The notes under the pieces: model-generated | What the model was told of the DNA's origin: nothing | Database searches by the model: none | The model's input: only the letters and a program-made list of their open reading frames with translations | Shown here: positions 1,426-42,759 of the stretch, in pieces | How positions within the stretch are numbered: the stretch's first letter is position 1 | How the letters are laid out: every line of letters begins with the position of its first letter | Origin: a virus | DNA: 44,002 bases | Strand: one strand, 5' to 3' | Virus record (IMG/VR): IMGVR_UViG_3300046525_000106 | Span: 1-44,002 of that record | Made by a program: the position numbers and the translations under genes

Positions 1426-1501
<76 letters not shown>

Positions 1502-1636: not shown

Positions 1637-1700
1637 CGACACCAAAAAAAGTGGATGTCATTTAGACATTCGCGGATTTTGGTGCCGTGGCGACACCACG
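1637..1700 (+). promoter_or_regulatory. Nested inverted and direct repeats in the integrase leader
   Basis: CACCAAAA (1640-1647) pairs with TTTTGGTG (1677-1684) and encloses ATGTC/GACAT (1655-1659, 1665-1669). A second hairpin CGTGG/CCACG (1686-1700) follows. CGACACCA occurs as a direct repeat (1637-1644 and 1691-1698). The block ends just before the integrase ribosome binding site. It could be integrase or excisionase arm sites, an operator, or an mRNA fold controlling integrase translation; the sequence alone does not decide. Confidence 0.55.
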
Positions 1701-1717
1701 AAATTTGGAGTGTTATT

Positions 1718-2731
1718 ATGCAAAAGCCGGTTAAGCGCGGGAACGCGTGGCGCATCACTGTTCGTTATTTAGGCAAACGTTATACAGCTACTCGAGATAC
1801 TGCGAGTGAGTGTGAACAATGGGCCGCTAAAAAATTATTAGAATTACAATCTGTACAGGCTAACCCTGAGCCTGAAAAAATTCATATCTCCTTCTATGCC
1901 CTTTTTGAACAGTACTATCAAGAAGAAGGCAGGAAAATGAAGAGTGCGCGCTTAATTGTTCAAATGCTTAAATGCCTTAAGAAGAACTGGGGAAAACTGG
2001 CAGATGAATCAATTCATGATTTAACGCCTGCATTAGTTAAACAATGGCGTGATAAACGGTTAAAGCAAGTTAAAGGTGCAACAGTCATTCGAGAAATGGC
2101 CATGTATAGTTCAGTTTTTGACTTTGCACGGAAAGAGCTATTTCTAACGAAAGAAAATCCATTCAAAGAAATATCAAAACCTACTGCTCCACCTCCACGT
2201 AATCAGCGGATTTATCAGAACTATATAGATACTGTTTTAGCTGGACTCGATTACGAGTGGGGAAAAGTTCCAGTTCAACCAAGGCACCGAGTTGCCTGGT
2301 CATTTCTATTTGCACTTGAAACAGCAATGCGTAAAGGTGAAATACTTAGCGTAGAGAAGCGATTAATATTTTCCGATTTTATTCGTCTATTAGATACTAA
2401 GAATGGCACTACTCGTGATGTTCCTCTAACTGCCAAGGCAAAAGAATTACTTTCTTGGTTACCTGACGATCCTGACGATAACCGCATGGTTCCACTTACA
2501 TCAAATGCCTTTCGATTAATATGGCAACGTAACTTACGCAGAGTTGGCTTAGATGGTGTTATTACTTTCCATGACACTAGACATGAAGCTATCACGCGTT
2601 TTGTTCATGACTACCGCTTACCAGTAGAGATCCTAGCGAAGATTACTGGCCATAAAACAATTAGTGTTTTGGTAAATACTTATTACAATCCAACTGCATC
2701 TGAAATTGCAAGGATGTTGACTGCTGCCTAA
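1718..2731 (+). CDS. int: Phage tyrosine integrase
   Basis: Site-specific recombinase that inserts and excises the prophage at tRNA-Gly. The start is set at ATG 1718 (337 aa) because GGAG lies 9-12 bp upstream; an in-frame ATG at 1655 lies inside a hairpin and has no ribosome binding site. Residues 1-60 form the small N-terminal arm-binding-like part, about 60-150 the SAM-like core-binding domain, and 180-337 the catalytic domain. Visible active-site residues are R205 (AMRKGEIL), the beta-hairpin K near 228, H285xxR288 (FHDTRHE), H312 (GHKT) and Tyr322/323 (NTYYNP). It is convergent with nothing and has its own terminator. Its length fits P4/lambda-like prophage integrases. Confidence 0.95.
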   Translation: MQKPVKRGNAWRITVRYLGKRYTATRDTASECEQWAAKKLLELQSVQANPEPEKIHISFYALFEQYYQEEGRKMKSARLIVQMLKCLKKNWGKLADESIHDLTPALVKQWRDKRLKQVKGATVIREMAMYSSVFDFARKELFLTKENPFKEISKPTAPPPRNQRIYQNYIDTVLAGLDYEWGKVPVQPRHRVAWSFLFALETAMRKGEILSVEKRLIFSDFIRLLDTKNGTTRDVPLTAKAKELLSWLPDDPDDNRMVPLTSNAFRLIWQRNLRRVGLDGVITFHDTRHEAITRFVHDYRLPVEILAKITGHKTISVLVNTYYNPTASEIARMLTAA

Positions 2732-38860: not shown

Positions 38861-39499
38861 ACTTATTAAACATGTCCCGCAGCACTTGGAAATATTTACA
38901 TCTGATACAAACGGCGCTTGCTTCGCCACTTCTAGTAGGCGCTTTACGCTTTCATCCGCTCCCCATCGTTTTACCACGCCTATGAACTCTTCAACGTCGT
39001 GACCTGCCAAATAATGTTTTGGTAAGCCAGTCATATCACTGTAAAGAGGCTCGCCATCTTGATCGCGCTCAACGCCAATGTGGTAAAGCTCGTGCTCTAT
39101 CAATGCACAAAAATCACGATCATTAGCTTGGTCGCAATAACTTGCATCAATAGTAATAAGATAAGTTGGCACATAGCCAAACCAATCACGCATCTGCTGC
39201 TCTTGACGAGCTTTCTTCCACCCGCCTTGGTTGAACATTACCTTTTCGCATTGGCCTAAAACCATACGCTTTTTAGCCGCACATGCCGATGAAGCCCAAG
39301 CACAGGCTAGAAACTCTTCATTATCATGAATAAGTTCAGCAATATGATCATGGTCAGGATTATGTAGTGGTCCACCAATAGTTAAAAAGTTTGTGATCAC
39401 CCAATTCATTAAGTCAGGTGCGGGAGCCAATCTAATTGCCTCATCCTCTTCGGCTTTATCAATCAACTCCTGAGGCGGAAATGGTCTGATTTGCTCCAT
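38858..39499 (-). CDS. Phage metallopeptidase-like protein
   Basis: A 213-aa protein with IEHELYHIGVERD (HExxH) followed by HYLAGHDVEEF and VVKRWGA, the layout of the putative phage metallopeptidase family. The N-terminus begins with PFPPQELIDKA; the C-terminus has three cysteines (SKCCGTCLIS). Its role is unproven; such genes are common next to terminase genes. It overlaps the upstream nuclease-like gene by 41 bp. Confidence 0.8.
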   Translation of the reverse strand: MEQIRPFPPQELIDKAEEDEAIRLAPAPDLMNWVITNFLTIGGPLHNPDHDHIAELIHDNEEFLACAWASSACAAKKRMVLGQCEKVMFNQGGWKKARQEQQMRDWFGYVPTYLITIDASYCDQANDRDFCALIEHELYHIGVERDQDGEPLYSDMTGLPKHYLAGHDVEEFIGVVKRWGADESVKRLLEVAKQAPFVSDVNISKCCGTCLIS

Positions 39500-39896
39500 T
39501 ATCGATTCTCGCTAATTCGCTCATAATCCAGTTAATTGCATAACCTGATTCAATTTGATGAGGTTCAAGACGCTCAAATTTAAAACCCTTATCTAAAGCA
39601 AGATCATATTTGCCCAAGGCATTTGCTATCTTTCGTCCACCTCGACCAACCGACCACGGGCTTCCAGCGATTTCTATAAGAAGACCTAACTTCACAATAT
39701 AAAAATCAAATCGCCAATTTTTAGTTGATTCAAATTGAAATTTTCGACGATAGCCAACTCGATGTTCTTCTAGCTCTTGAAATAGGGTTTCTTCTGCCTC
39801 TAAGTAATTTTGTTTAGCCTTAGGCAATGGTCGGCTTTTAAGTTTTGCTTTAGGTTCTTTTTTTCTTGTGAGCCAAAAATAGTCTTTAATGTCCAT
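39459..39896 (-). CDS. PD-(D/E)XK-like nuclease, 145 aa
   Basis: Contains E in EETLFQELEEH, WRFDFYIVKL and LIEIAGSPWSVGRGGR, the layout E-x(n)-D-x(n)-E-x-(G/K) of Vsr/DUF559-type endonucleases. The start is ATG 39896; AGG 10 nt upstream. It resembles the product of 42257-42640 in the core (WR-x-DF-x-I, then (I/V)E-x-x-G-x-x-W-S-x-GR). It might cut or process DNA during recombination or packaging. Confidence 0.7.
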   Translation of the reverse strand: MDIKDYFWLTRKKEPKAKLKSRPLPKAKQNYLEAEETLFQELEEHRVGYRRKFQFESTKNWRFDFYIVKLGLLIEIAGSPWSVGRGGRKIANALGKYDLALDKGFKFERLEPHQIESGYAINWIMSELARIDNGANQTISASGVD

Positions 39897-39907
39897 ACCC
39901 AAGCCTT

Positions 39908-40681: not shown

Positions 40682-41056
40682 TGTTATCTCTCCTTTTTAT
40701 TCTTATTTTGTCCGTTAGTCATGTTTTTAAGAAAGTATGATGAATATAATATTGCTATATGTAAGAGTAATTGGATAAAAGGTAACCTATGTAACAAGCA
40801 TGAAAACTTACTGCCAAAACAAACCACAAAAATAACAATAAAAGAGACCTTATTCTCATTATTAAAACTGTCATTTTTATAATTTGAAATAATTTAAAAA
40901 ATAAACAGCCCCGCTAATTATCTATTATTGGCGGGGCTTTTTCTGCTATTGCAATCTAATCAGTATGTTTAAATGCATTGTATAAATATGAGTAACGGTT
41001 AAAATTCAGCACTTTTTTATTGATCAAGTATCAACATAATTGATAAAAATTTTATA
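40682..41056. other. Intergenic stretch
   Basis: About 375 bp without a supported gene. It holds a strong hairpin (40907-40943). A plus-strand frame at 40673-40882 has no ribosome binding site and is rejected. No other signal is clear. Confidence 0.6.
40907..40943. terminator. Strong bidirectional terminator
   Basis: AGCCCCGC (40907-40914) pairs with GCGGGGCT (40931-40938) around 16 nt and is followed by T-runs on both strands. Confidence 0.85.
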
Positions 41057-41537: not shown

Positions 41538-41649
41538 TGCTCACCTCACTTATTAGGAAGAGTGGAATTTAAATTATCATCCACCTTTGTAGCGTTCCAA
41601 CTCGTTTTAGAGAGGTTTCTGTATATATCTAAAGCAATATGTAATAAAA

Positions 41650-41673
41650 AAAGCCCACCATTTGATGAGCTTT
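41650..41673 (-). terminator. tR'-like terminator close to the late promoter
   Basis: On the minus strand AAAGCTCAT pairs with GTGGGCTTT (one G-U) followed by seven U. It begins about 35 nt after the predicted late transcript start. Confidence 0.78.
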
Positions 41674-41713
41674 AATACCAGTGAATTACTTACACTTCGA
41701 ACACTGTAATACG

Positions 41714-41742
41714 AATATGCCATAACCTGTATTTACAGTCAA
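41714..41742 (-). promoter_or_regulatory. Putative late promoter (PR'-like)
   Basis: On the minus strand TTGACT (41742-41737) and CATATT (41719-41714) are 17 bp apart. It overlaps the end of the Q-like gene and points into the late operon. The -10 box is weak (4/6), as might suit an antiterminator-dependent promoter. Confidence 0.5.
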
Positions 41743-42260
41743 GAAAGTTGATTTTCCTCAACTACGATCTTTATAAATTTTTCAATTTTAAAATGCGGAT
41801 AACGTGATTTGATAAAGGCTAAGCCGCATTTAATGTCCTGTTGGATTTGCGAACCATATGTATCATTACTCTTTGCAATATCTCGAATAGACTCACCCAT
41901 CACGTAATGCCACCAGATTGCTCCGATCCATTCCTGAACAACCTCATCATCTATACTTTGAAGATCAAGAACCATTCTATGAATTGCCCGTGCTTCATTA
42001 TCGTTTAATTGACAGCAAGTACCCTTACGACGCGTACATAAACGATCTTTTAAAGTTTCATCGCTCATGTACATAGCCATAAATTTTTCACGTTGTTTTT
42101 GAGTAATGCGTTTAGTTGGCATAGTCTTAACAATTTTAACCATTGTTTCAGTATCACCGTTTAGCCATGCTCCTAGCTGTCGGCACCATTCTTCAAAACT
42201 ATATTTAGACCAATCGACCGCTTGTAAAATGTGTTGTTGTACTGGCATATTCATTTTCAT
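41739..42260 (-). CDS. Q-like late antitermination protein
   Basis: A 173-aa protein, about the size of phage Q-type antiterminators. The C-terminal part has an HTH-like region (YVMGESIRDIAKSNDTYGSQIQQDI) after a WIGAIWWHY segment, a pattern I associate with the Phage_antitermQ-type family. Paired cysteines (LCTRRKGTCC) could bind zinc, as in some Q proteins. It overlaps the preceding nuclease gene by ATGA. Its 3' end carries the predicted late promoter, the classical position relative to lambda Q. The assignment rests on position as much as sequence. Confidence 0.72.
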   Translation of the reverse strand: MKMNMPVQQHILQAVDWSKYSFEEWCRQLGAWLNGDTETMVKIVKTMPTKRITQKQREKFMAMYMSDETLKDRLCTRRKGTCCQLNDNEARAIHRMVLDLQSIDDEVVQEWIGAIWWHYVMGESIRDIAKSNDTYGSQIQQDIKCGLAFIKSRYPHFKIEKFIKIVVEENQLS

Positions 42261-42640
42261 CCCACCAATTGCTCTATTTGTTTAATCGCCACGCCTGCTT
42301 TCACTTGCTCTGTACTGAACCGTAAAACTGTAAAACCCATCATTGCCGCCGAGTTATATTTCTCCATATCCCCAATGTAACCTTTACCCCTTGTGTGGCG
42401 TCCACCGCTCCAAATCCCGCCTTCTACCTCTACCAAAATCTTTTTTCCCGAAATTAAAAAATCTGCTCTCCATTTGCGTTTTGGATGGAATTTATATTCC
42501 TGCTCAAAATTAATCTTGCAGGCTTTGAGATGTGTTGCTAATAAAACCTCTCCTACACTAGGTTCCCGTGTTTGCTTTGCTGAACGGCGCTTTTTATTTT
42601 TCTGAATAGGAAATAATTCACGATATTCAGCAAGGCTCAT
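42257..42640 (-). CDS. PD-(D/E)XK-like nuclease, 127 aa
   Basis: The start is ATG 42640 with GGAG 8 nt upstream; a longer frame to 42736 overlaps another gene and is rejected. Core: E in PSVGEVLLATHL, KRKWRADFLI, ILVEVEGGIWSGGRHTRG. This matches Vsr/DUF559-like or VRR-type nucleases and the product of 39459-39896. A phage Holliday-junction or repair nuclease role is plausible. Confidence 0.72.
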   Translation of the reverse strand: MSLAEYRELFPIQKNKKRRSAKQTREPSVGEVLLATHLKACKINFEQEYKFHPKRKWRADFLISGKKILVEVEGGIWSGGRHTRGKGYIGDMEKYNSAAMMGFTVLRFSTEQVKAGVAIKQIEQLVG

Positions 42641-42645
42641 GGAAC

Positions 42646-42759
42646 TCACTCCTGAATTGCCTCCTTTCGCGTATGCCACCAAAGCACTACAACGCCACAG
42701 ATGACTCCAGTTACGATTGATATGAGCATTGCCCAAGCTAAAATTTCAAATTTGTTCAT
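42646..42759 (-). CDS. Short TM protein, 37 aa
   Basis: A short frame: MNKFEILAWAMLISIVTGVI with a membrane helix (about 8-28) and a charged end (HTRKEAIQE). GGAG lies 8 nt before the ATG; the next gene's ribosome binding site is inside its last codons, so the two are closely packed. Confidence 0.65.
   Translation of the reverse strand: MNKFEILAWAMLISIVTGVICGVVVLWWHTRKEAIQE

Follow-up and report, generated by a model that had tools for sequence, protein, structure and literature searches.

Organisation of the switch region

The window, a 44,002-nucleotide stretch of viral DNA whose only similar sequences in the phage collection come from Acinetobacter phages, carries a Q-like gene followed by about 32 kb of late genes, all transcribed in one direction (Table 1). 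These leftward genes, which extend from 40.7 kb to 9.6 kb, encode packaging, capsid and lysis functions (DUF2280, large terminase, portal, head, tail and endolysin), in agreement with the unidirectional late region recognised in a preliminary description of this DNA. In this Acinetobacter phage the locus acts as the master switch that governs virion and lysis genes. Upstream of the Q gene are the end of a replication initiator gene and two further genes, one of the DUF559 type and one PAPS-reductase-like. The switch is flanked by a PHROG503 gene pair, one member being late (39459-39902, minus strand) and the other early (42257-42736, minus strand, with a DUF559 match). A tRNA-Gly gene (1426-1501, plus strand) lies beside an integrase gene (1655-2731, plus strand) and is a likely attachment site. 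An Rfam scan matched a tRNA and nothing else.

Table 1. Coordinates of the late switch and of the elements assigned to it
Feature	Position	Strand	Remarks
Q-like antiterminator gene	41739-42260	-	173 aa; TGA stop codon 41741-41739
Late region, read from the Q-adjacent promoter	9641-41707	-	Gene calls
-35 hexamer TTGACT	41737-41742	-	Overlaps the Q stop codon; TTGA conserved in relatives
Extended -10, TGG CATATT	41714-41722	-	Hexamer 41719-41714; spacer 17 bp
Palindrome CTGTAAATACAG (arms CTGTA and TACAG around AA), putative Q-binding element (QBE)	41727-41738	-	Fixed dyad; covaries with Q residue 140
Predicted transcription start	A 41707 or C 41706	-	From the -10 position and the leader hairpin beginning at 41706
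-10-like TACAGT, putative sigma-dependent pause element	41703-41708	-	-1 to +5; first base 11 nt past the promoter -10
TGTA, possible pause site	41691-41694	-	+14 to +17; common to both leader forms; from sequence comparison
5' leader hairpin	41679-41706	-	Arms CAGTG 41706-41702 and CACTG 41683-41679; also in predicted fold
Leader terminator (tR'-like), AAAGCTCATC-AAAT-GGTGGGCTTT and T tail	41643-41673	-	Stem 41673-41650, 10 pairs; 7-T run

The Q protein is of the phage 21 type

The preliminary description had labelled the antiterminator a lambda-type Q, a label that has to be replaced. The protein matches PHROG79 (E 8.6e-35) and PF06530 (26.4 bits, barely over the cut-off of 26), no other Q family being among its Pfam and PHROG matches, and PF06530 is matched by 42/60 Q relatives. 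An NCBIfam search found nothing, and PDB sequence searches with Q alone or with a Q profile did not reach the phage 21 protein, 21Q. An indirect chain of homology to 21Q is provided by E. coli QuuD, a member of PF06530/PHROG79 that matches 21Q at 7.6e-7; PF03589 is matched by E. coli YdfT and not by the Q of the window. We built an AF2 model of Q on an alignment of 60 relatives (pLDDT 74, moderate), and in a Foldseek comparison with the PDB its five best matches were phage 21 Q entries, with sigma region 4 and KorA ranked after them; the E-values were only 0.15-0.71, and the argument uses rank rather than E-value. The family matches, the fold ranking and the QuuD chain together place Q in the 21 type and not the lambda type. 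The modelled protein has a sigma-region-4-like helix-turn-helix (HTH), with a recognition helix at about residues 136-153 that includes the specificity residue Gln140 (I-Q140-Q-D), chosen by mutual information.

Conservation of the late promoter

As described previously, the Q gene ends on a leftward promoter, its stop codon lying inside the -35 hexamer. A consensus scan of 4 kb returned 12 promoter-like sites against 14.0 expected from shuffled sequence, so that the promoter is not above chance by this measure; the scan by itself is not supportive, and relatives were needed to decide. Among Q relatives gathered from viral contigs, phage records and genomes, the arrangement TTGA..-N17-.A...T occurs at or just after the end of most Q genes (134 distinct regions, 336 loci), and the TG of the extended -10 is present in 33/39 nonredundant promoters. 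The promoter is thus conserved in hundreds of loci from Acinetobacter phages, which shows that it is real, and the TTGACT-N17-CATATT assignment of the preliminary description, at chance level on consensus alone, is confirmed.

No usable start-site map was found in the literature searched. Covariation of the leader hairpin arms, described below, argues for a start no later than 41706, provided that the dyad does not act as DNA. The TACAGT element was considered as the -10 of an alternative promoter and rejected: it has no correctly spaced -35, and the covarying leader hairpin would be untranscribed.

The promoter is not always adjacent to its Q gene. In L086, L285, L299, L301, L292 and their relatives, Q and the matching late promoter are kept apart by 0.3-1.4 kb of additional DNA that contains gene starts. 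Some PHROG79 proteins of Acinetobacter, mostly of the NDARSDVKCG class, are without such a promoter in the flanks examined (L338, L345, L350, L355, L356, L358, L360, L362, L365, L368 and L369), and a comparable palindromic promoter was not found after Q in nine enterobacterial phage loci of the QuuD type.

A palindrome at a fixed position in the promoter spacer

The sequence CTGTAAATACAG between the -35 and -10 hexamers is a palindrome. The preliminary description does not mention it, nor does it locate a pause element or note the hairpin at the 5' end of the leader. Numbering from the first T of the -35 as base 1, its centre falls between bases 10 and 11. In promoters picked regardless of symmetry, half-site matches numbered 117/150 in 25 distinct cores, compared with 42 +/- 5.6 after shuffling (maximum 63 in 20,000). 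Addition of genome loci raised the collection to 47 distinct cores, a count that omits one false pick (L281), and the position of the dyad relative to the promoter is constant in nearly all of them; in promoters with an 18-bp spacer the dyad shifts together with the -10. Besides that of the window, examples of cores are GTGTGCGCAC, CCTTGTACAAGG, CCTTGATCAAGG, CGTGACGTCAC, CTTGGCGCCAA, CTGGCATGCCAG and CCTTCCGGAAAG. The inner four dyad pairs covary far above shuffles, bases 9 and 12 being complementary in 48/53 cases versus at most 29 when shuffled. A tandem site of the kind used by phages 21 and L, with a period of about 8 bp, was rejected: the spacers contain no direct repeat (identity 0.19-0.25 at periods 5-10), and an inverted repeat is seen instead. 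Exceptions are a few related Q systems in which the spacer is not palindromic (AAGTCAGGGTGT; L340, L399 and L401) or carries an odd-centred inverted repeat of the CATGGC-A-GCCATG type (L374, L391, L392 and L394).

Residue 140 of Q varies with base 9 of the palindrome

In one pair of relatives (L087 and L088) the N-terminal halves of Q are nearly identical, and the C-terminal HTH and the palindrome change together. A scan of all Q columns identified residue 140 as the best for base 9, with an excess mutual information of 1.03 bits (next column, 0.68). Across 53 nonredundant pairs, base 9 is A with Gln140 (9/9), G with Arg140 (23/24), C with Glu140 (3/3) or Asp140 (3/3) and T with Asn140 or His140 (3/3); Lys140 is off-code (A 7, G 2, T 1, C 1). 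Base 9 was predicted correctly in 47/52 cases when each core was left out in turn. Reading of A by Gln, of G by Arg and of C by Asp or Glu is the usual alphabet of major-groove contacts.

The residue-base table was spotted by eye and tested later; the column scan and an outside check are independent of that choice. On a tree built from the N-terminal columns of Q only, the Arg/G link was concordant in about 7/9 independent pairs (p ~0.016), the test being confined to this link because the others had too few pairs. For the outside check, the flanks of L086-like Q genes lacking an adjacent promoter were searched by architecture, with base 9 left unspecified, and a promoter was found 0.3-1.4 kb downstream. 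In these families, which were not used for the table, all 11 with a previously seen residue agreed with it (Arg-G 10/10, Asn-T 1/1); five Ala140 families all have C at base 9, a residue new to this check, so that Ala-C does not count as a prediction. Comparison of the relatives thus points to a pairing between particular amino acids of Q and the DNA bases that they would read. Since the palindrome tracks residue 140 even where the promoter is at a distance from the gene, it is very probably the element to which Q binds.

Pause element, leader hairpin and leader terminator

Sigma-dependent pausing requires a -10-like element (PMC6606751). The pause element implied by the preliminary description has a candidate in TACAGT: a TA...T motif at positions 35-40 (T35, A36 and T40) is present in 35/39 nonredundant promoters that had been selected without using the element. 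TG at positions 32-33 occurs in 36/39 promoters, and the window carries TA there. The TGTA motif coincides with the backtracked state of 21Q at +14 (PMC6606751) and, by this analogy, is a possible pause site.

The arms of the 5' leader hairpin covary, scoring 14.5 when matched and 11.7 when swapped (sd 0.42, maximum 13.1 in 2,000; 32 arm families), and two classes of leader exist whose hairpin sequences are unrelated. Downstream, the hairpin with a seven-T tail that had been placed about 35 nt past the predicted start was found as a 10-pair stem beginning at +35 if +1 is A41707. A terminator scan found 6 terminators versus 2.1 expected, and folding z-scores were -3.4 for the leader and -5.5 for the terminator. 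Among 137 distinct leaders, 78 have a terminator starting at +30 to +46, compared with 0.24% of base-shuffled leaders, and several of those missed by the scan carry a terminator with a shorter T run. The predicted terminated leader is about 60-62 nt long.

Terminator load in the late region

Between 41707 and 9641 there are 21 strong intrinsic terminators in the sense direction, including the leader terminator, versus 4 in the antisense direction, with 0-1 in dinucleotide shuffles. With 21 sense-strand terminators in the late operon, something would have to override them, and it is unlikely that a single polymerase reaches the lysis genes without antitermination, although internal promoters could also serve. 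Two terminators resembling the leader terminator, 41368-41347 (AAGCTCATC..GATGGGCTT) and 40141-40116 (AGAAGCCCGCC..GGTGGGCTTTT), both on the minus strand, flank short ORFs near the start of the late operon, within its first 1.6 kb. The strongest antisense terminator of the late region (40908-40937, plus strand) is nearly symmetric and may work both ways.

A model for Q-dependent late gene expression

We consider it highly probable that the whole locus is a Q-dependent antitermination switch of the phage 21 kind, a reading backed by comparison and computation through its architecture, the palindrome, the helix coupling, the -10-like element, the hairpin covariation and the terminator load. The start site, pausing, the two protomers, the exit-channel mechanism and readthrough are the proposed parts of the model. 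Without Q, host RNA polymerase would start at about 41707, pause near +14 as sigma rebinds the -10-like TACAGT, and terminate at about +60 (41646). Once early transcription supplies Q, its sigma-region-4-like HTH would bind CTGTAAATACAG between the -35 and -10, where two protomers would probably sit inverted relative to each other. Q would then load on the paused polymerase and remain in the RNA exit channel, and the modified polymerase would pass the leader terminator and about 20 more before reaching the lysis genes, which lie at about 9.6 kb. We offer more tentatively, as a possible but doubtful extension, that the Qs of Acinetobacter phages load as a pair of protomers on their inverted repeat, with one protomer turned opposite to the 21Q orientation, that specificity evolves via single changes at residue 140, that Q and its site move between phages as a matched pair, and that the 5' hairpin may be a stopper holding the Q ring on the RNA.

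Other readings of the locus were weighed against this one. Dimeric repressors usually use palindromic sites, and the palindrome could be the operator of another regulator, either a phage repressor or an activator, with Q working elsewhere; however, the palindrome tracks the recognition helix of Q, the protein for which coupling was examined, even when the promoter is 0.3-1.4 kb from Q, and it occupies the same position as QBE, ABE and ZBE, which leaves this reading very improbable. It is also improbable that Q acts as an activator or sigma-like factor that switches the promoter on, with the terminator incidental. The sigma-region-4-like HTH, the overlap of the palindrome with the -35 and the annotation of one Q relative as an RNA polymerase sigma factor would fit such a role, but the terminator at +30 to +46 is retained in most distinct leaders, as is the -10-like element, some 20 further terminators lie downstream and the solved Q homologues are antiterminators.

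A function of the leader RNA in addition to Q control, whether as a cis-acting 5' hairpin or as a small RNA of about 62 nt, is unlikely but deserves some weight, given that the hairpin arms covary and that the loop sequence is partly common to both leader forms. Some other phages are known to have terminated late leaders that serve as small RNAs, and the HK022 put RNA offers a precedent for antitermination by RNA in cis. Against this, loop conservation may largely be at the DNA level, reflecting the pause site, and the same Q type occurs with two unrelated hairpin sequence classes. That promoter and terminator are chance matches in AT-rich DNA would agree with a promoter consensus score no higher than the shuffled expectation, but is contradicted by conservation and covariation over hundreds of loci, and the likelihood of this is negligible.

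Relationship to known antitermination systems

The overall circuit logic is that of lambda Q and PR'-tR'. The lambda switch geometry put forward in the preliminary description therefore stands as regards the circuit, which comparative evidence strongly supports, but the switch is of the phage 21 kind and has a leader shorter than that of lambda. The lambda late leader is about 194 nt, and lambda Q, unlike the system in the window, needs a -35-like element. Lambda Q is also from a separate family of proteins and is not obviously homologous to 21Q (PMC6606751).

Phage 21 Q and PR'21 share with the window a PF06530-related protein with a sigma-region-4-like HTH, a site between the -35 and -10, a -10-like element in the initially transcribed region and a terminator downstream; the pause and backtracking of 21Q at +14 are here predicted. 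The site of 21Q is a direct repeat in which TGAGCA occurs twice, with C at -21 and -13 (PMC6606751; PDB 6JNX, 6P18), whereas in the window the repeat is inverted about a fixed dyad, and no direct-repeat periodicity is seen. Phage L gp23 is 80% identical to 21Q and its predicted site is another tandem direct repeat (PMC8022706). As in phage L, the C-terminal part of Q and the QBE change together among relatives, but here about 50 versions narrow the coupling to a single residue and a single base.

A near-perfect palindrome between the -10 and -35, tested by mutation, is used by GafZ at the Caulobacter GTA promoter (PMC11150451), so that there is a precedent for an antiterminator site that is palindromic. 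GafZ resembles the system in the window in combining a spacer palindrome, here assigned from sequence, with an antiterminator that has a sigma-like HTH; it differs in being reported without sequence or structural similarity to known antiterminators, in acting together with GafY and IHF, and in having one natural site. AlpA, which is without sequence homology to 21Q, binds as one protomer to a single 6-bp site, GGGACG (PMC9371919); loading of the antiterminator from a spacer site at a sigma-dependent pause, as at the alpB promoter, is what we propose here. We found no description of a palindromic Q site in Acinetobacter phages in the open-access literature, and the palindromic site within the PF06530 Q family, the diversity of sites and the residue-to-base code appear to be new.

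Q proteins govern late expression and lysis in many temperate phages, and their choice of site is known from few examples. The roughly 50 natural versions of the site, each paired with its own Q, form a set for deciphering Q specificity that is also useful for predicting cross-activation of late genes between prophages, and they raise the question of how an exit-channel antiterminator is loaded when its site is an inverted repeat and not a direct one. The same features provide a sequence-based route to late promoters in Acinetobacter prophages.
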